Positions 1-7,960 of a DNA stretch of 33,127 nucleotides are shown in pieces. A program made the translations under genes and the position numbers. The stretch is taken from IMG/VR virus record IMGVR_UViG_3300032240_001991, positions 1 to 33,127 of that record; one strand, written 5' to 3'. Each line of letters starts with the position of its first letter. Within the stretch, counting starts at the first letter, position 1. The notes beneath the pieces were generated by a model that ran no database searches, was not told where the DNA came from, and saw nothing but the letters and a program-made list of their open reading frames with translations. Source of the stretch: a virus.

Positions 1-372
1 CTTGGTCCATTAGGCCCATTAGGTCCAATTGGTCCACAGGGTGTTCAGGGCCCACTTGGTCCGTTAGGTCCAATAGGCCCGCAAGGTACTCAAGGTCCAA
101 TAGGCCCGCAAGGTACTCAAGGCCCACTTGGTCCAATAGGATTCTCAGGCAGTCAAGGCCGAGATGGCCCATTAGGTCCACTTGGTCCACTAGGCCCATT
201 AGGTCCAATAGGATTTATTGGTAGCCAAGGTATTGGTCCAATTGGATTTATTGGTAGCCGTGGACCAGTTGGTCCACTAGGTCCGCAAGGTACTCAAGGC
301 CCACTTGGTCCGTTAGGCCCAATAGGATTTATTGGTAGCTTTGGAAACCTAGGTCCTCTAGGTCCTGCAGGA
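1..372 (+). repeat. Collagen-like coding repeats (Gly-Pro-X), including an exact 27-bp tandem duplication
   Basis: In-frame 9-bp units coding for Gly-Pro-Leu/Ile run through this stretch. Bases 67-93 and 94-120 are identical 27-bp copies. A 15-bp unit coding for Gly-Phe-Ile-Gly-Ser recurs at 211-225, 244-258 and 325-339. Lengths in multiples of 9 or 27 keep the frame, so slippage here would lengthen or shorten the collagen rod without breaking the gene. Confidence 0.85.
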
Positions 373-825
373 CCCGGTACTAGTATCAATGCTACTGCGT
401 CAACGGCGGCAGGACCCTTCTTTGTTGTAGGCGTATCCGCTGCTGGCGGAGCAACACCTACTATATCAACAACCAGTCCTATCTCATTTAACGCAACTAG
501 CGGTACATTAAGTGCTGTAATACTTAATGCTACCTCAGATATTAATAAGAAAGTTAATATTTCTCAAATTAATAATGGATTAGAAATTGTAAATAGCTTG
601 ACAGGTGTTAAGTTTAACTGGAAACAAAATCAACTACCAAGTGCGGGACTAATTGCACAAGAAGTTGAACAAGTTCTGCCAGAATTGGTGTCAATTGATC
701 CAGACGGCAGCAAGGCACTTAACTATAACGGTATAATTGGTGCACTAGTTGAAGCAGTTAAGAGCTTAACCACAGAAGTTAATTCGTTGAAGCTAGAAAT
801 TGTAAATATTAAGAAAGGAAAGTAA
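1..825 (+). CDS. Collagen-like tail fibre protein with C-terminal S74-type intramolecular chaperone (5' end missing)
   Basis: The frame is open from the first base, so the N-terminus lies outside the window. About 120 codons encode Gly-X-Y collagen-like triplets, mostly Gly-Pro-Leu/Ile/Gln, interrupted by GFIGS-type spacers. A short Ala/Ser/Thr-rich stretch follows, then a C-terminal domain resembling the peptidase S74/endosialidase chaperone: a TSDINKKV start, FNWK, the GLIAQEVEQVLPELV signature, LNYN and a terminal coiled coil (LVEAVKSLTTEVNSLKLEI). In this family the domain trimerises fibres and cleaves itself off; the Ser-Asp at the domain start fits the usual cleavage position. The protein is probably a trimeric, collagen-helix distal tail fibre. 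The polyglycine protein begins 3 nt after its stop, as expected for a fibre/adhesin pair. Domain assignment is strong; the exact fibre (long or short) is unknown. Confidence 0.88.
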   Translation, partial: LGPLGPLGPIGPQGVQGPLGPLGPIGPQGTQGPIGPQGTQGPLGPIGFSGSQGRDGPLGPLGPLGPLGPIGFIGSQGIGPIGFIGSRGPVGPLGPQGTQGPLGPLGPIGFIGSFGNLGPLGPAGPGTSINATASTAAGPFFVVGVSAAGGATPTISTTSPISFNATSGTLSAVILNATSDINKKVNISQINNGLEIVNSLTGVKFNWKQNQLPSAGLIAQEVEQVLPELVSIDPDGSKALNYNGIIGALVEAVKSLTTEVNSLKLEIVNIKKGK

Positions 826-828
826 TGA

Positions 829-1698
829 ATGCCATCTAATATACTAACTGGCTCGCCCGGTGTAGACATAGATAATAAACTTGCTCCATATGTTACTGGA
901 GGTAGTTACGGAGCAATACCTGCTGCTGCTGCTACAGGTATAACATCTGCTACATTTGATCTTAATACTAGATTTGCAGCTATTGCGAGAGGTACATCTT
1001 GGACTACTGCAACCAATATACAAAAAGCCGGGGCTGACATTAATACTATATTTGCTGGAAAAGGAACCGCAGTACTATCGTTTACTTCTACACAGGCTAC
1101 TAACGCAACTCCAATTAGCGGAACATTTACTATACCAACTATTTCGCCATCAAGTAGTGCAACTCTAGTTGTATATATGGCTGGAGGTGCAGGCGGAGGT
1201 GGCGCCGGTGTTACAACTGGTGGTAAACCCAACACAAACTACGGTGGTGGTGGCGGAGGTTCGTCTGCAATTTATAGATTTAACTATTCATTAACTTCAG
1301 CAAATAGCAGTCAAACTATAACTTATACCGCAGGTGGAGCTGGAACAACATCAACTGTTTCGGGAGGTAGCGGTAATCCTGGAGCATCTAGTGCTATTAC
1401 GGGAGGAACATTTAGTCCTACTTTATGGAATATTCCCGGAGGGGGCGGTGGTGGTGGTGCAACGGTAGCACCTGCTGCTGGCGGATCAGGAGGCTCAGCA
1501 GGCGGAGGATCTACAACAGGCACTTTAGTTGTAGTTGGACAAGCAGGAACTGCTGGCGCAGCTGGAACAACTGGTACAGGAGGAACCACATCATCTAATA
1601 GTATCGTAAGCACAGGTGGGCGAGGAGGATCCTCTGGATCATTGTTTAATGCAACTACCGGAACCGGGGGCCTTGTTGTTTTTACAATACTTTATTAA
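829..1698 (+). CDS. Glycine-rich tail fibre tip / adhesin-like protein
   Basis: 289 residues. The N-terminal ~115 residues are Ala/Thr-rich and resemble a fibre-attachment region. The rest is dominated by Gly runs (GGAGGGGAG, YGGGGGGSS, GGGGGGGA, GGSGGSAGGG, GRGGSSG) separated by Ser/Thr/Val strands, ending in a hydrophobic VVFTILY tail. This pattern resembles the phage glycine-rich fibre domains and the polyglycine-II sandwich of T-even gp38-type adhesins, which bind the host surface from the fibre tip. It starts 3 nt after the collagen-like fibre stop, with AAGGAAAG upstream, so the two are probably co-translated. Adhesin function is inferred from composition and position; receptor and fold are not proven. 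Antisense open frames here are by-products of the GC-rich Gly codons. Confidence 0.65.
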   Translation: MPSNILTGSPGVDIDNKLAPYVTGGSYGAIPAAAATGITSATFDLNTRFAAIARGTSWTTATNIQKAGADINTIFAGKGTAVLSFTSTQATNATPISGTFTIPTISPSSSATLVVYMAGGAGGGGAGVTTGGKPNTNYGGGGGGSSAIYRFNYSLTSANSSQTITYTAGGAGTTSTVSGGSGNPGASSAITGGTFSPTLWNIPGGGGGGGATVAPAAGGSGGSAGGGSTTGTLVVVGQAGTAGAAGTTGTGGTTSSNSIVSTGGRGGSSGSLFNATTGTGGLVVFTILY

Positions 1699-1710: not shown

Positions 1711-2028
1711 ATGTTAACAAAAATTAGCAATGTTAAACTATATTTTGGTCTTACTGACACAGGATTACCAGATTGTTATGCCTGTAGAGATATTTTAGAT
1801 CAAGAACAAATTAGTTATGATATTATTCATTATACTGATGCTGCTCAATATAGCTTTGTATTTTCAGCTATAAATTCGTGGGGACTTGGCGAAGTAACAG
1901 ATTTTCCTTTTGTTACATGGGACGAAGAGTACGACGATCGTCCGGGGGAAGGATTTTGTAATATGGCTATAGGATCAACAGCACTACAATCAAGCACATT
2001 AGTTCAAAATAAAGGATTAATTCTATGA
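1711..2028 (+). CDS. Small glutaredoxin-like protein (first of a tandem pair)
   Basis: 105 residues. The pattern is that of a thioredoxin/glutaredoxin fold: a first beta strand (VKLYFG), a C-Y-A-C motif at about residues 22-25 before a helix, a second strand (YDIIHY), then D-F-P-F-V-T-W, where the Pro fits the conserved cis-Pro before the third strand. Phage glutaredoxins usually supply reducing power to ribonucleotide reductase, but no reductase gene is in the window and this copy sits among fibre genes, so another thiol role is possible. It overlaps its paralogue by 4 nt (ATGA). Recognition is by motif spacing only. Confidence 0.5.
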   Translation: MLTKISNVKLYFGLTDTGLPDCYACRDILDQEQISYDIIHYTDAAQYSFVFSAINSWGLGEVTDFPFVTWDEEYDDRPGEGFCNMAIGSTALQSSTLVQNKGLIL

Positions 2029-2348
2029 GTAATTTAGTTAAAATTTCTAACGTTACTATGTACTTTGGAGAAAATAATTTTTCAGAGCAATTTCAATGCA
2101 AAAATTTCTTAGATTCTAATAATATTCTTTATTCAAAAGTTATGATTATGGCAAATCCAAGTGATTTCTTTACATCTATGAGTCAAAATGTGTTTGGTGA
2201 TCTTTTTACGATGTATACCTTTTCTTCTTTTCCTATAATCACATGGACTGAATATTATGACGACTATGATAGATTTGATAACGTTTCTCAAAGTTTTTCA
2301 GAATTAACAACTAGTACACTAGTTACAAATGCTTCTTTAATTCGTTAA
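2025..2348 (+). CDS. Glutaredoxin-like paralogue lacking the CxxC pair
   Basis: 107 residues and clearly related to the preceding protein: both share SNV-(K/T)-(L/M)-YFG near the start, an FLD/ILD helix, an F-P-(F/I)-(V/I)-T-W strand followed by an acidic E-(E/Y)-YDD patch, and an SSTLV/TSTLV C-terminus. This copy has Q-F-Q-C where the first has C-Y-A-C, so only the second Cys remains and ordinary dithiol chemistry is unlikely. Its ATG overlaps the upstream TGA (ATGA), indicating coupled translation. It looks like a tandem duplication with divergence of one copy. Function unknown. Confidence 0.5.
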   Translation: MSNLVKISNVTMYFGENNFSEQFQCKNFLDSNNILYSKVMIMANPSDFFTSMSQNVFGDLFTMYTFSSFPIITWTEYYDDYDRFDNVSQSFSELTTSTLVTNASLIR

Positions 2349-2354
2349 TATAGC

Positions 2355-3044
2355 ATGTCTAATCCTTTTGATTTTTTTGATGAAATTTATTGTATAAATT
2401 TACCTAGCTCTGTTGAAAGATGGAATACGGTATCAGAAACATTCACTAAGTTAGGGATAATGCCTCGAGTTAAAAGAATTGTAGCAAGACCTCCAGATGC
2501 AGATATAATACAGGCTACTCCTGAAGGGCTGTTAAGATTAGGTATAAATTTTAATCCTATTGGAATGCTGGGCTGTAGCTTAAGCCATCTAAAAATTTTA
2601 ACTAAAGTTTTGAATAATCGTTCAAGTAATGTTTTAATCTTTGAAGACGATGTAATGTTTACTGATGTTTTTTCTTTTGAAAAATTAAATAACGCTATTT
2701 TAGAATTACCACCAACTTGGGATATCTTATTTTTAGGTGCTGATCCTGTACAACCAACTTTAAAATATTCAGAAAATCTTATTAAAGTTACTCATACATG
2801 GGGAAGCTATGCATATGCACTCAATCAGAAATGTATTTCACATATTTGTACTACAACAATAGATAATCTTACACAAGGTGGGCTTGATTATTGTTTATCA
2901 ATTTTTAGTTCAGACCTACTAGAAAAATTTTGCATTACTCCGCGAATGTGCACAGATTCGCCAGGAGTAAGTACAATGGACGGAATTTATCATGACTGGA
3001 ACATTGAATCAAATGCCAGATGGAACGAATTTGTGCCAAAATAA
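2355..3044 (+). CDS. Family 25 glycosyltransferase (LPS-type)
   Basis: 229 residues with the hallmarks of glycosyltransferase family 25 (LPS galactosyltransferase / LgtB-LpsA-like): I-N-L-P-S-S-V-E-R-W at 14-23, GCSLSHL at 73-79 and the acidic F-E-D-D motif at 96-99 preceding the donor/metal site. WDILFLG and WGSYAYAL further on also match the family. These enzymes transfer a sugar from a nucleotide-sugar donor in the cytoplasm. In a phage the acceptor could be host LPS or a virion protein; the position beside fibre genes favours surface or virion glycan modification, which is inference. It follows the glutaredoxin-like pair by 6 nt and is the last plus-strand gene before the minus-strand operon, with only 10 nt between the convergent stops and no obvious terminator. 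Confidence 0.8.
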   Translation: MSNPFDFFDEIYCINLPSSVERWNTVSETFTKLGIMPRVKRIVARPPDADIIQATPEGLLRLGINFNPIGMLGCSLSHLKILTKVLNNRSSNVLIFEDDVMFTDVFSFEKLNNAILELPPTWDILFLGADPVQPTLKYSENLIKVTHTWGSYAYALNQKCISHICTTTIDNLTQGGLDYCLSIFSSDLLEKFCITPRMCTDSPGVSTMDGIYHDWNIESNARWNEFVPK

Positions 3045-3054
3045 ATTAAAAGAC

Positions 3055-3540
3055 TTACTTTACAAATTGTCCGTGTTTTATAAGAATAATTTTAGCATCA
3101 CCAGATAATTCAATATCGTACTCTCTTGGTTTTAAATAATTTAATGCTCTAAGCGTTTTTCTATCTCCTGTACATTTACCTAATACACAATAAGCACCTA
3201 TGCCTTTTGGTAAAATAAATGTATCAGTAAGCCTTATAAATTCTGCTGTATAAGGTTTATAACTTGAAAAACATAACCAAGTCGTATCCTGAGGAAATAA
3301 CTCGTATGTATCAAAATTTAAAACAACACTGGTGTTTAAAAAAAATTCACCTTCAAAGATGTTGTTTAATTGAGCTGTTTTAGTTCTATATTCTTCTAAC
3401 CTTCCTCTATACATATAAGTAGCAAATAAATTTTTATCATATTCTCCTTGTCCTACTTCCCATATTCGACTACTATGATCGTTATGACCAACGACATTAA
3501 CTACAAACCCTGAATATTGAACAGTTAGAGTAGAGATCAT
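3055..3540 (-). CDS. Unknown protein ending the auxiliary operon
   Basis: 161 residues, no family recognised. It is rich in predicted beta strands (TVQYSGFVVNVV, VVLNFDTYEL, IGAYCVLG, AKIILIKHG), and a segment L-P-K-G-I-G-A-Y-C-V-L-G recalls the turn-strand pattern of small cupin-like proteins, but metal-binding His residues are not in a convincing cupin arrangement. Its ATG overlaps the GNAT stop as ATGA, so it is the seventh and last gene of the minus-strand run that starts at 7928. Operon position suggests it works with the acyl-transfer or modification enzymes, possibly as a binding or accessory protein. Confidence 0.6.
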   Translation of the reverse strand: MISTLTVQYSGFVVNVVGHNDHSSRIWEVGQGEYDKNLFATYMYRGRLEEYRTKTAQLNNIFEGEFFLNTSVVLNFDTYELFPQDTTWLCFSSYKPYTAEFIRLTDTFILPKGIGAYCVLGKCTGDRKTLRALNYLKPREYDIELSGDAKIILIKHGQFVK

Positions 3541-4139
3541 AACTCAAAACTAAGCGGTTTAGCTTGCCCTTTTATATGACCTGATTGATTTATGGGCGTT
3601 GAAAACATTTCTAAAGTACTTAATAAGATATTAGTTGTAACTTCGCTAGCTTGATCTACATTAATATCTTGTAATAGTTTTAACCTTGCTGCATAATGCA
3701 AATAATCGTTATTATAAAGAATACTGATATTTAACGAGGATTCAAAATCAAACTCATTGTTGCGCGCATCATATGTGCCAACGACAATGTGCGACATGTT
3801 TATAATTTTCTTCCATATTGAGTTTGAATTTTTAGTCATCATAAAATCATTAACTACTGTGTATTTTTCTTTTTCTAAAAGATATCTATAAAAAAATGTA
3901 CCAATTCCTTGATTTTGATATGAATTGAGAACATGTATTTCGTACGCTTTAACGCAGTTCTTATAATCACGCATCTTCATTAACCAAAAATATCCTATCA
4001 AATTTTCATTATCGTACATTCCGTAATATATAGAAATATCAGTAATTTTTCGTTTTAATAAAAATTTATTAAAGAATGCAACTTCTGTTGCTCCTAAGAA
4101 CAGTTGAGATGCTTCGTCAAAATTTCTGAGATCTGTCAT
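3537..4139 (-). CDS. GNAT-family N-acyltransferase
   Basis: 200 residues from the ATG that overlaps the upstream stop as TAATG; a longer ATG at 4148 is possible but less likely. The acetyl-CoA pyrophosphate-binding motif A is visible as Q-N-Q-G-I-G-T (about 75-81), preceded by the AYEIHVLNSY strand, with a helix YRYLLEKEK after it and a conserved-looking NSIWKKI motif. GNAT enzymes move an acyl group from acyl-CoA to an amine. The gene upstream in the same operon is an NDP-forming acyl-CoA-synthetase-like protein, the same two domains fused in bacterial Pat/PatZ protein lysine acetyltransferases. The acceptor here is unknown: amino sugar, small molecule and protein are all open. Confidence 0.75.
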   Translation of the reverse strand: MTDLRNFDEASQLFLGATEVAFFNKFLLKRKITDISIYYGMYDNENLIGYFWLMKMRDYKNCVKAYEIHVLNSYQNQGIGTFFYRYLLEKEKYTVVNDFMMTKNSNSIWKKIINMSHIVVGTYDARNNEFDFESSLNISILYNNDYLHYAARLKLLQDINVDQASEVTTNILLSTLEMFSTPINQSGHIKGQAKPLSFEL

Positions 4140-5416
4140 TAACCACATAATTTTTTTAACTCTTCTAATGCAGTTTCTATGTTTTGATAAACTAAAATTT
4201 TATTTTTGCGCAACACACGTATTCCAGGCGAATTGTTATGCCTACATACAAAAGCTGCTAGTTTACCGGTTAATAACTTTGCTATTTTTTTAGCAAATTC
4301 TTTTTCTTTCTTAGGATCTTCTTGCCCTGTTAAAAATAAAATTATTAAAAACGCATCTATACTAGTCTCATCTGCTAATAAAGAAATAATCTGATACGTT
4401 TTTTCAGAAAATCCAGCCGAAATACCAATTAAATCTATAGGATTGTTAATTTGGTTATTTGATCGATTTAAAATTTCTTGTATTTTTTGAACATCCGTTG
4501 TTGATATGTCAGTTAAATCAAATCCTTTAATTTCAGACTCACCGGCAGCAATTACTCCAAGCCCTCCGGTGTCGGTTATAATCATAATTTTCTTCTTTTC
4601 TTTTTGAAAATTATTAATAATAAGTAACGCAAATTCTTGAAGTGTAGATGCAACAACTGAATCAGCAATATTAATATTACCTAATTTAGACCCAGTATGC
4701 AATAAAGATGCTCTTTTTGATGCATTAGTAATCTTTGGTGATAAAAGTATCAGCGGTTTTGTTAATTTTATAAACGGAAGATTTATGCTTTCTTCTAAAT
4801 ATATAGCAATAACTTTAGTATCTTGATCTAAATTTAAGTAATCAATCATTGACGGAACTAGCGAAGTTTGATTTCCAATAGAAATAATTTTTGAAAATCC
4901 TAGTCCTGATGATGTTGTCATGCGCTCATGAAGATCAGCAATTACTCCGCCGCTCTGGGATATCATCCCAACGCTACCTGATACTGGAGATATTATTGGT
5001 AAACATTGAAACTTTTTTGACCAGACTCCTGCACAATTTGGGCCAATAAGCATACTACCTGCTTGAGAAATTTTTGATTTTATTCTGTTTTCAATATCAT
5101 AATTTCCGGTCTCTCGAAAACCAGTTGTAATTCCAATGATAACTTTTGTTCCGTGATTTAACAACTCGTCAATAACGGTTTCAAACACATACAGAGGAAC
5201 GGTAACAATAGCAACATCAATCTTTTCAGGTATTTCAGAAATTGAAGATAAAGAACGCTGATTAAAAATTAGTTCTCTTTGACGATTAATAAGATATACA
5301 TTTTTATCTTCAGTGTTTAATAATACTTGTTCAGTAATCCAATTTCCCCATTTTGTTACATTAGCAGACGCACCTACAACTGCAACAGATTTTGGAGAAA
5401 ATAAAACATCAAACAC
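4139..5416 (-). CDS. NDP-forming acyl-CoA synthetase alpha-like protein (CoA-binding/CoA-ligase domains)
   Basis: 425 residues from the GTG at 5416, which overlaps the methyltransferase stop by 8 nt like the other junctions here and lets the protein begin just before L-F-S-P-K-S-V-A-V-V-G-A-S; an ATG at 5452 would add 12 residues and a 44-nt overlap. Domains in order: a Rossmann CoA-binding domain (GAS at 15-17), GPNCAG (125-130), S-Q-S-G-G (153-157), an L-L-H-T-G-S loop whose His (about 240) aligns with the phospho-His of ADP-forming acyl-CoA synthetases, then a third alpha/beta domain (ITDTGGLGV, NNPIDL). The ATP-grasp beta part is absent, so it would need a partner to charge CoA with ATP/ADP. 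It is coupled by TAATG to the GNAT gene. Substrate unknown. Confidence 0.75.
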   Translation of the reverse strand: MFDVLFSPKSVAVVGASANVTKWGNWITEQVLLNTEDKNVYLINRQRELIFNQRSLSSISEIPEKIDVAIVTVPLYVFETVIDELLNHGTKVIIGITTGFRETGNYDIENRIKSKISQAGSMLIGPNCAGVWSKKFQCLPIISPVSGSVGMISQSGGVIADLHERMTTSSGLGFSKIISIGNQTSLVPSMIDYLNLDQDTKVIAIYLEESINLPFIKLTKPLILLSPKITNASKRASLLHTGSKLGNINIADSVVASTLQEFALLIINNFQKEKKKIMIITDTGGLGVIAAGESEIKGFDLTDISTTDVQKIQEILNRSNNQINNPIDLIGISAGFSEKTYQIISLLADETSIDAFLIILFLTGQEDPKKEKEFAKKIAKLLTGKLAAFVCRHNNSPGIRVLRKNKILVYQNIETALEELKKLCG

Positions 5417-5981
5417 GAATAATATCCCATCTTGCAACAGTGTACGGAGCATTTAATCTAAAATGAGTTCCAATATGTATCTTAGTACGTACAAATCCTA
5501 ACTTTTCAAACATTTTGTCGTATTCTTCAACTGATCGATGATATACTCCATATGGGTATGGTATACCTCTATAAGACCTTTCCATAATTTCTGCTAATAC
5601 AACGGTGTTGGTATTTTCGCATAGCCTTAGTATAATTTGATCTATTTCTTGATCATTAACCAGATGAGGACCGTTAATAAACATAGTTGTTTGACAAGGC
5701 GGTAATTCTAAAAAATTCCATGGTAAAAATCTATAAGATGGGTTTATGCGGGTTGCTTTTTTAACTGCTGACTCGCATATATCAAACCCAATATATGTTA
5801 ACGGATTAAAATTTTTAGCTAATCGACCATACCCACATCCAACATCTCTAACTGGGGAATCCCCAACAAATTCCATAACCGCTTTTACATTTTCTTCACC
5901 TTCGTAATATTCGTGACCGGTTGACCAACGAAAATAATTAATTCCTTCAGTTTTCCAAAAATTTACATCTATAGAAGTCAT
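5409..5981 (-). CDS. Class I SAM-dependent methyltransferase
   Basis: 190 residues from the ATG that overlaps the sulfotransferase stop as ATGA; an ATG at 5993 would give a 16-nt overlap. Motif I of class I methyltransferases is clear: V-R-D-V-G-C-G-Y-G-R (about residues 45-54), followed by the acidic strand-2 end Y-I-G-F-D-I-C and a helix with AVKKA. A later MFINGPHLVND segment fits motif IV. The fold binds S-adenosylmethionine; the methyl acceptor cannot be read from the sequence. It is the fourth gene of the minus-strand operon, between the sulfotransferase and the acyl-CoA-synthetase-like gene, so it may act on the same product. Confidence 0.78.
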   Translation of the reverse strand: MTSIDVNFWKTEGINYFRWSTGHEYYEGEENVKAVMEFVGDSPVRDVGCGYGRLAKNFNPLTYIGFDICESAVKKATRINPSYRFLPWNFLELPPCQTTMFINGPHLVNDQEIDQIILRLCENTNTVVLAEIMERSYRGIPYPYGVYHRSVEEYDKMFEKLGFVRTKIHIGTHFRLNAPYTVARWDIIRV

Positions 5982-6736
5982 AGCTGATCCCATCCTCTTG
6001 CTATTAAATTATTTTTAAAGTCAATAGGAATTCTATCTAACACATCTAATTCTAATTTTCTTAAAAGGTCAGGTGGCGGTAATTCTTTATTTTTTACAGT
6101 TTCATATGTATTAACTTTTTCTTGAGGAAGACTTGTAACTGTTGGGAGAGAAAAGAAATTTAACATATCATTAAAATGATTCACGTCTAAAATTTTGTCA
6201 ATATTTGTTTCCCAACACAACGATCCTTTCTCTTTTGCGTAATTGTAATAATACTGTGCTCTTTTTTCGCATTCGCATGCATACCAAAAACAAAGTTGAT
6301 AGGTATGCGCCTTTTCCCAATTAGCAAACGGCAAAACATTTGGTTCGTTTGGAATATTAAACCAGCACATATAACCAGGATGTTTTCCAGGAATCCAATT
6401 TAGTTGAAAAAGGCTTGATGCTATTTTTCTAGGATTCCTACGCAATATCACAATTGTTGGAATTATGCCAAAGTCGTAAAAATATTCAAGACATCCCTTA
6501 GATACTGATTGATCTGTATTTGTGTAAGTTTTTCCTGGTAATTGTTGAATGTAGTTAAGATGTTCCTTAACAAATTTTTTTCCAATTTCAGGATTTAAAA
6601 TGTTTGCCTGTCTTACTGAGCTAAAGCTAGGTTCTCTTTCATGTTCTGAAAAATTATTAGGAACTTGAGCAAACAATCTGCTAAGTAAAAAAGTTCCAGA
6701 TCTTCCTGAAGAAATTGTTAGAGTAATTGGTTTCAT
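5978..6736 (-). CDS. PAPS-dependent sulfotransferase
   Basis: 252 residues. The N-terminal S-S-G-R-S-G-T-F-L-L-S (about 9-19) is the 5'-phosphosulfate-binding loop of sulfotransferases, and V-I-L-R-R-N-P-R-K-I-A-S-S-L-F (about 96-110) is the 3'-phosphate-binding strand-helix with its conserved Arg and Ser. The enzyme would transfer sulfate from PAPS to a hydroxyl or amine on an acceptor such as a glycan or lipid. It starts with TAATG at the end of the second oxygenase gene, so translation is coupled. A hydroxylated product of the two upstream oxygenases could be the sulfate acceptor; this is inference from gene order. Confidence 0.8.
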   Translation of the reverse strand: MKPITLTISSGRSGTFLLSRLFAQVPNNFSEHEREPSFSSVRQANILNPEIGKKFVKEHLNYIQQLPGKTYTNTDQSVSKGCLEYFYDFGIIPTIVILRRNPRKIASSLFQLNWIPGKHPGYMCWFNIPNEPNVLPFANWEKAHTYQLCFWYACECEKRAQYYYNYAKEKGSLCWETNIDKILDVNHFNDMLNFFSLPTVTSLPQEKVNTYETVKNKELPPPDLLRKLELDVLDRIPIDFKNNLIARGWDQL

Positions 6737-7326
6737 TATATTTCAATATACGATGAGTTAGCAATTGGTTTTTGCAAAGGGTCATATGCAAAACAAGTTA
6801 AAGAATATTTAATTCCTCTTTTAAGAGTATCGGTATGATGCCGATGAGTGAGCACTCCGGGCCAAAAAATTGCAGTACCTACAGGTAAATCTTTTGTGTT
6901 AAAGTTTTGACGAGGAAAATATAAATCACACCCACTAAAATCGTTATTAAGTTTAATATTACAAGAAATTAGACCAATATCAATATGAGACCTAATTTTA
7001 ACTGCGGTATCTAGGCTATATCGAAGGAAGTACGGACTAAAAAGTTTAAGATCATAAAAGAACCATTCTTTTTTAAGAAGTGGAACAACTTTAGTAAGAT
7101 AGTGATTTTTAAATTCTACAGTAAATTCTTGATCAAATGTAATTGAGTTTAAGTAGTATGTACTAAAATTCATGTCTACAGGATCTGGCGCAAACTGATG
7201 TTTTTGATTTTCAAGTCTTTCTACTAAATCTTGACAAAATTCTTTTGTCCAAAAAGGACATATTAGAATATCGTCTTTAATAGTATATTCTCCAAAATTA
7301 GAATCAATGGCACTAGTGTAATTCAT
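6736..7326 (-). CDS. 2OG-Fe(II) oxygenase, prolyl-4-hydroxylase-like (second copy)
   Basis: 196 residues. Iron ligands are visible as H-I-D (H114, D116) and a distal His in L-T-H-R-H-H (H161 or H163). Lys at about 173 in R-G-I-K-Y-S-L takes the place of the usual Arg that binds the 2-oxoglutarate carboxylate, as in prolyl 4-hydroxylases. It is a paralogue of the preceding gene: both have F-W-T-K-E-F-C, LYFPRQ/LHFPRQ and WPG-(V/M)-LTH. Such enzymes hydroxylate peptides, lipids or small molecules. The ATG overlaps the upstream stop (ATGA). Many marine T4-like phages carry 2OG-Fe(II) oxygenases, usually with unknown substrates. Confidence 0.82.
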   Translation of the reverse strand: MNYTSAIDSNFGEYTIKDDILICPFWTKEFCQDLVERLENQKHQFAPDPVDMNFSTYYLNSITFDQEFTVEFKNHYLTKVVPLLKKEWFFYDLKLFSPYFLRYSLDTAVKIRSHIDIGLISCNIKLNNDFSGCDLYFPRQNFNTKDLPVGTAIFWPGVLTHRHHTDTLKRGIKYSLTCFAYDPLQKPIANSSYIEI

Positions 7327-7928
7327 GGTTTAAGAACAAAACTAACACCTGACGGATCAAACCATTGAAGAGGCGGCCAAGAAAAAGATACAAACGTATA
7401 TTTTTTCCCTTTAGTAAGTTCAGTTACATAATGAGGATGAGTTAGCATTCCCGGCCATATCATTGCATAACCAATTGGAACATCTTGTCCGCAAAACTTT
7501 TGTCGAGGAAAATGTAACTCACAGCCTTCATAATCGTCGTTTATTCTCATGTTTATAGTAATAACACCTTCGTCTGTATGTTTTAAAAGATCTCGATTTT
7601 CGTCCATTGAATAACGAACAAAATATGGAGTAAAAACACCAGGGACGTCCATTTGAACTGCTCGTTGAATCATCCATTCTTTTTTTAACATAGGAATAAT
7701 ACTATTTTTATAATGATCGGCAAAAGATACGACGTAATCTCGTCCTATATCATTTAATCTTAGTATGCGCATGTCGTCATAGGTAGTAACAAATCGGTCT
7801 GAATACCTTTCACATGCCTCAACCATTTCGGCACAAAATTCCTTTGTCCAAAAAGGAGTCACAATAATATCATTATGGATTTCATATTTTCCAAAATCAG
7901 GATGCAGACCGCTGTGGTAATGATTCAT
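7323..7928 (-). CDS. 2OG-Fe(II) oxygenase, prolyl-4-hydroxylase-like (first copy, operon lead gene)
   Basis: 201 residues. The HxD motif is K-H-T-D (H117, D119), the third iron ligand lies in L-T-H-P-H (H164 or H166), and Lys at about 176 (GKKYTF) aligns with the 2-oxoglutarate-binding basic residue. The fold is the double-stranded beta helix; VPIGYAMIWPG is the typical penultimate strand region. It leads the seven-gene minus-strand operon, with an AATAAATA late promoter octamer 24 nt upstream and only a weak purine-rich ribosome site. Tandem duplication with the next gene suggests two related hydroxylations or different substrates. The substrate is unknown. Confidence 0.84.
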   Translation of the reverse strand: MNHYHSGLHPDFGKYEIHNDIIVTPFWTKEFCAEMVEACERYSDRFVTTYDDMRILRLNDIGRDYVVSFADHYKNSIIPMLKKEWMIQRAVQMDVPGVFTPYFVRYSMDENRDLLKHTDEGVITINMRINDDYEGCELHFPRQKFCGQDVPIGYAMIWPGMLTHPHYVTELTKGKKYTFVSFSWPPLQWFDPSGVSFVLKP

Positions 7929-7952: not shown

Positions 7953-7960
7953 TATTTATT
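7953..7960 (-). promoter_or_regulatory. T4-type late promoter octamer AATAAATA for the auxiliary operon
   Basis: Read on the minus strand the bases are AATAAATA, one change from the T4 late consensus TATAAATA. By T4 geometry transcription would start near 7947, leaving a leader of about 19 nt before the ATG at 7928. This predicts that the whole auxiliary operon is expressed late. Confidence 0.55.

Follow-up and report, generated by a model that had tools for sequence, protein, structure and literature searches.

Recurring late gene cassette beside the fibre genes of a T4-like jumbo-phage record, and its candidate targets

What would a phage modify with two oxygenases, a sulfotransferase, a methyltransferase, part of an acyl-CoA synthetase and an acyltransferase, all encoded in one operon? 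The question is raised by bases 1-33127 (hereafter the window, 33,127 nucleotides) of the 326,658-bp virus record IMGVR_UViG_3300032240_001991, in which seven minus-strand open reading frames (ORFs) run from 7928 to 3055 with starts and stops overlapping head to tail. They encode two 2-oxoglutarate (2OG)-Fe(II) oxygenases, A and B, a sulfotransferase-fold protein (ST), a methyltransferase (MT), an NDP-forming acyl-CoA synthetase alpha chain (ACD), a GNAT acyltransferase and a cupin-like protein. An earlier note on this DNA had assigned the same classes, calling the last protein a beta-rich unknown, and had read the seven genes as a late operon acting as an assembly line on one product. The single late operon and the enzyme classes, with intact motifs, are borne out. 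The assembly line is not: in relatives of the cassette the 2OG and MT slots hold non-orthologous enzymes or are empty, and the ACD has no ATP-grasp partner. Thus a path to one product remains an inference, and only the ACD alpha chain, the ST, a short 'tail' peptide and the cupin-like protein are constant. The reading we favour, to which we give slightly less than an even chance, is that T4-like phages express this conserved cassette late to tailor their own receptor-binding apparatus (collagen-like or Gly-rich fibres, or their glycan) during virion assembly.

A late operon whose core recurs in six phage lineages

The source is a T4-like jumbo-phage record of 326 kb. Its sheath, tube, gp13-, gp14/15-like and terminase genes form a structural cluster of T4 type, and among isolates its sheath is closest to those of jumbo phages such as Phosso and Atu_ph07 (∼40% identity). 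The T4-type late promoter octamer AATAAATA lies on the minus strand at 7953..7960, 32 nt upstream of the first ATG, as had been proposed. Across the whole record, the regions upstream of ORFs are enriched ∼30-fold in [AT]ATAAATA octamers: AATAAATA occurs in 16 of 132 upstream regions against 0.5 expected, and TATAAATA in 11 of the 132 against 0.3 expected. This enrichment identifies the pair as the phage's T4-like late octamer.

The earlier note had placed ATGA or TAATG at every gene junction except an 8-nt overlap before the ACD gene, and this stood for most of them. The two 2OG genes overlap by 4 nt (ATGA), 2OG B and ST by 1 nt (TAATG), and the GNAT and cupin-like genes by 4 nt (ATGA); ST and MT share an ATGA provided that MT begins at its second ATG, 16 nt past the first. 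The GNAT start (MWL, the same in all relatives) gives a 10-nt overlap instead. The 8-nt overlap of ACD holds if the gene begins at the GTG at 5416, a start backed by homologues (MIDFIFNPSSVAV...), whereas the longest ORF overlaps MT by 44 nt.

Single-sequence scans of viral contigs with the ACD, ST and last gene returned nothing, and cassette relatives were therefore sought by alignment-based scans. The first of these, with ACD, retrieved phage contigs (36-39% identity) on which the set recurs. In contigs L110-L115 a collagen-like fibre gene is followed by small proteins, a Gly-rich adhesin-like protein, ACD, 2OG, methyltransferase, GNAT, ST and the cupin-like gene, then by a convergent homologue of the window gene at 1711-2028 and the neck genes. 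L109 carries 2OG-ST-MT-ACD, with ST-MT-ACD in the window order, and ends just past ACD. Scans with ST and the cupin-like protein added L127 (collagen fibre, Gly-rich, ACD, ST, cupin-like, with no GNAT between ACD and ST) and L130 (fibre, Gly-rich, ACD, GNAT, ST, cupin-like). A phage-only ACD profile, run against 2.9 million viral contigs, matched these nine contigs only; ST is present on all nine and the cupin-like gene on eight, L109 ending after ACD. No such set was found on 47 bacterial contigs with ST relatives. In the isolate-phage collection searched, no homologue of ST, MT or the cupin-like gene was found, and ACD has only weak matches of 23-30% identity (gut contigs, short fragments and sucD-type proteins); ST is also absent from the plasmids searched.

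The core thus recurs in at least five other uncultured phage lineages, six with the window. ACD, ST, tail and cupin-like protein travel together wherever the sequence covers them, at ∼35-50% protein identity and in reshuffled order, and in the relatives whose sequence reaches far enough they lie between fibre/adhesin and T4 neck genes, as in the window. Since the 2OG and MT slots vary, only these four parts form the obligate core. The ratio of non-synonymous to synonymous substitution (dN/dS) between two module phages is 0.015-0.12 per module gene, and 0.09 for gp13; the cassette genes are under purifying selection as strong as that on gp13. Recurrence in five other lineages together with these ratios is more than chance would give. 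The cassette is real and not scattered cargo, the outcome that the earlier note had named as fatal to its reading; missing catalytic residues, the other such outcome, were not seen, the key residues being present.

The cassette is previously undescribed: no account of it was found in the open full-text literature, subscription literature not being covered. A reading as a defence system was dropped, as PADLOC gave only weak, meaningless matches.

Proteins of the cassette

The ST (5978..6736, minus strand, 252 aa) has no Pfam or other family match, and a profile search against Protein Data Bank sequences gave no useful match, so the call rests on fold and motifs. The AF2 model, built from a 30-sequence alignment, has a pLDDT of 93.8, and its top Foldseek matches are sulfotransferases, including TPST1/2 (tyrosylprotein) and HS 3-OST (heparan sulfate 3-O). 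The P-loop GRSGT (residues 11-15) and the motif RR..R..A.S (99-108) are present, and R12, G14, R100 and S108, in the 5'-PSB P-loop and 3'-PB motif, are invariant across the 30 sequences. By fold and motifs the protein is thus a predicted PAPS-dependent sulfotransferase. The class-I SAM methyltransferase that follows (5409..5993, minus strand, 190-194 aa) has only sub-threshold Pfam matches; its GxGxG motif is intact (DVGCGYGRLA), and it is 46% identical to the L109 protein.

The ACD gene (4139..5452, minus strand; 425 aa from the likely GTG start at 5416) matches PF13607 (5e-17), PF13380 and TIGR02717 (2e-71), scoring 241 bits against the latter's curated equivalog cut-off of 567, which it does not pass. 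It carries KWGNW (34-38), GPNC (137), E220 and H252, and H252 and E220 are invariant in all phage members. The ATP-grasp beta part (PF13549) was found neither in the whole 326-kb record nor in the records of seven relatives, which are mostly fragments; 14/14 controls were positive. Pat-type protein acetyltransferases are among the structural matches.

The GNAT (3537..4148, minus strand, 203 aa) scores above the PF00583 cut-off, has the motif QNQGIG, and ends in a conserved peptide of ∼48 aa (LKLLQDIN...KPLSFEL; 3540..3683, minus strand), the tail. In relatives the GNAT lacks this peptide: a homologous segment forms the C-terminus of ST in L110-L115 (L112:12964-13116) and a free ORF of 52 aa in L130 (5347-5505); in L127 (4850-5011) its frame differs from that of the called ST, as an overlapping ORF or through a frameshift or sequence error. 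Shuffle z-scores of the window tail against the tails of four relatives are 7.8-13.7, with weak similarity (z 1.8-3.9) between some other pairs. The tail ends on the cupin-like start codon in every relative. This fixed place, with a changing fusion partner, suggests that the peptide docks to, or otherwise partners, the cupin-like protein. The latter (3055..3540, minus strand, 161 aa) has a model (pLDDT 77.6) that suggests a cupin-like barrel, with HutD/PA5104, AerE and pirin-type folds the closest; the cupin, HutD and pirin matches have E 2e-4 to 5e-3 and TM 0.4-0.6. Its alignment contains no invariant His and no metal-binding His/Glu motif.

Oxygenase A (7323..7928, minus strand, 201 aa) is lysyl-hydroxylase-like, and B (6736..7326, minus strand, 196 aa) is its tandem paralogue at 43% identity; the family assignment is phrog_61. 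The HxD...H iron triad and a basic residue 10 positions on are intact in both (H117, D119, H166 and K176 in A; H114-D116-H163-K173 in B). The best solved relative of A is the mimivirus L230 procollagen lysyl hydroxylase (6ax6, E 8e-13), and B matches human LH3 at E 7e-4. Both are single-domain proteins with no glycosyltransferase domain in the polypeptide; a GT25 glycosyltransferase, which the earlier note had seen beside the operon, is the separate convergent neighbour (2355..3044, plus strand; PF01755, 3e-10) and a possible partner of the 2OG enzymes.

Candidate targets

Under the fibre reading, the 2OG pair would hydroxylate side chains, and the ST would move sulfate from host PAPS onto a hydroxyl, whether of Tyr, a hydroxylated residue or a sugar. 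Methylation would fall to the MT, the ACD alpha chain would handle acyl-CoA via His252/Glu220 chemistry, and the GNAT would transfer an acyl group to an amine, while the cupin-like protein with its adjacent tail might bind the modified group or scaffold the enzymes. Altered receptor binding, fibre stability or charge would be the outcome. This reading draws on the presence of the same core in six lineages with fibre/adhesin genes upstream and neck genes downstream, on the late octamer and on purifying selection. It draws also on the nearness of the 2OG pair to procollagen lysyl hydroxylases and on the place of the pair's wider phage family beside collagen genes: proteins in which GT25 and a 2OG domain are fused adjoin collagen-like genes at 36/40 phage loci, against 0/13 viral and 0/47 bacterial control loci. 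The match of the ST model to protein- and glycan-acting sulfotransferases, and the GT25 gene beside the operon, point the same way. Collagen repeats are known in structural proteins of pelagimyophages (PMC7029224), and prolyl 4-hydroxylase has been described among the auxiliary genes of viruses, its use being unclear (PMC9301287).

Several observations weigh against this reading. The phage's own collagen, like that of L112 and L127, is almost devoid of lysine, on which the closest 2OG relatives classically act, and in a tree the window twins fall in a standalone clade, apart from the collagen-linked fused enzymes. The ACD alpha chain is without an ATP-grasp partner. Fibre neighbourhoods gather unrelated cargo, which makes location weak evidence of substrate, and the genome encodes a large sugar-nucleotide cluster at another locus, which makes a glycan target also possible. 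A virion target nevertheless fits the gene neighbourhood better than does a diffusible molecule.

Hydroxylation of collagen lysines is the obvious candidate, but the lysine count and the separate clade tell against it. As a split procollagen system, a two-gene counterpart of the fused marine-phage proteins, the 2OG twins would hydroxylate fibre collagen lysines and the separate GT25 would glycosylate them, the rest being add-ons; the lysyl-hydroxylase similarity, the adjacent GT25, the collagen-side location of the fused relatives and a collagen-rich genome all speak for it. However, in the fused-enzyme phages (six loci examined) lysine occupies 27-45% of collagen Y positions and none at X, which is the pattern of the animal substrate, whereas the window phage has lysine at 13/681 Y positions (2%) and L112 and L127 have none. 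This 2OG type was also not seen in other core-module phages. We regard a split procollagen system as improbable, and the separate clade with 2% lysine at Y makes classical lysyl hydroxylation an unlikely main job. Other candidate sites are proline and tyrosine, which fill 35% and 15% of X positions of the phage's own repeats, and residues outside the collagen. The fused enzymes themselves (L033-L108 and the S-CAM9, CRP-6 and S-8S53 loci), beside collagen-like tail fibres, look like a phage system of their own for collagen hydroxylation and glycosylation.

The cassette might instead serve to make or alter a diffusible small molecule or a glycan of the host surface, the product being a sugar or lipid that bears hydroxyl, sulfate, methyl and acyl groups (for superinfection exclusion or signalling, for example). 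In glycan tailoring, acyl-CoA, GNAT and sulfotransferase enzymes are typical; the ST fold matches include HS 3-OST, no such cassette surrounds the bacterial relatives of ST, and the phage has its own sugar-nucleotide/glycosyltransferase cluster. But the relatives carry the cassette between fibre/adhesin and neck genes rather than in glycan clusters, and its transcription looks late, late for reshaping a host surface; we consider this rather unlikely, though a serious candidate. Less probable even than the split procollagen system is a Pat-like device in which the ACD alpha chain senses or supplies acyl-CoA and the GNAT acylates host lysines, redirecting metabolism, with the other genes as bystanders. 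ACD and GNAT are indeed adjacent in the window and in L130, and the Pat-type structural matches fit, but L127 keeps ACD, ST and cupin-like genes with no GNAT between the first two, every phage ACD retains the catalytic His, and the octamer is late. That the genes are unrelated morons sharing a late operon would accord with a block G+C of 31.7% against 38.3% for the genome, with the differing 2OG/MT slots in relatives and with the related phage L031, in which the corresponding locus, next to neck-gene homologues (of window g013 and g014) and a NUDIX homologue, holds different 2OG and methyltransferase genes. The co-travel of ACD, ST, tail and cupin-like genes in every lineage covering them, and purifying selection, make this the least likely of the alternatives. 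The L031 locus marks this as a place near the fibres at which modification genes are swapped between phages.

If the fibre reading is true, receptor-binding proteins would be chemically decorated with sulfate, acyl, hydroxyl and methyl groups not normally expected on virions, and host range and adsorption would be altered in ways unseen by sequence-based fibre prediction. More tentatively, the cassette may be a multi-step post-translational modification pathway by which a phage sulfates and acylates (and hydroxylates and methylates) its own receptor-binding fibres, yielding a sulfated virion protein and employing an ACD alpha chain that operates without ATP-grasp, together with a novel cupin-tail pair. 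In any case the recurring set of ACD alpha chain, ST, tail peptide and cupin-like protein is defined and its function testable, and the alpha chain apparently works without an ATP-grasp partner.

Neighbouring genes and comparison with known systems

The fibre gene that the earlier note had placed near the operon is a collagen-like (Gly-X-Y) C-terminus with a chaperone-like domain (1..825, plus strand), open at the record end. Collagen-like repeat proteins (G-P-L/G-Y-T-G-S) are many in this genome, at both ends and at 80655-82085, 84398-84913, 216269-220222, 316525-320598 and 325707-326654 of the record; since both record ends lie inside such repeats, the assembly probably broke there. A Gly-rich adhesin-like protein follows (829..1698, plus strand). 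In relatives a Gly-rich protein lies directly upstream of ACD; a comparison of the window protein with its L112 counterpart did not demonstrate homology. Two small tandem proteins of 105 and 107 aa (1711..2348, plus strand) correspond to a single homologue convergent to the cupin-like gene in the relatives that reach it; the two are tandem duplicates, and one of them (g002) has a CYAC motif and is glutaredoxin-like by eye. The sugar-nucleotide cluster lies outside the window, at 143969-173493 of the record (L007/L008). It encodes nucleotidyltransferases, a GDP-mannose dehydratase-like protein, DegT enzymes and a sugar C-methyltransferase, with a ThDP enzyme, a DmpG-like aldolase and an acylating acetaldehyde dehydrogenase in a row, and suggests a phage-made branched-chain sugar.

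The ST shares fold, P-loop and RR...S 3'-phosphate motif with TPST1/2 and HS 3-OST, but at 12-15% identity and TM 0.5-0.58 its substrate is not inferable from them. The ACD has the three alpha domains, CoA-binding motif and catalytic His and Glu of ACD-I alpha chains (4xyl, 2csu; TIGR02717). It differs in being 35-41% identical to phage members and ∼30% to its best bacterial relatives, in falling under the TIGR02717 cut-off, in the lack of a beta chain in the phage and in its linkage to ST and a cupin-like gene. An ACD-like protein adjoining a GNAT recalls Pat-type acyltransferases, whose ACD domains lack the catalytic His; in the window the genes are separate, the His is kept, the ATP-grasp part is missing and the GNAT is optional in relatives. 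With the marine-phage fused GT25-2OG proteins (S-CAM9, CRP-6, S-8S53) the locus shares a related 2OG domain, GT25 and a collagen-like fibre neighbourhood, but those phages have lysine-rich collagen and one fused protein, and no ACD/ST/cupin-like cassette was seen in them. Like LH3/PLOD and mimivirus L230, to whose lysyl hydroxylase domain the 2OG pair aligns with the HxD...H triad and the basic 2OG-binding residue, the window phage combines these enzymes with a nearby GT25 gene and collagen-like fibres. Unlike them, its 2OG twins are standalone, its GT25 is separate and its collagen is nearly lysine-free, and the twins share their operon with sulfotransferase, ACD, GNAT, MT and cupin-like genes.

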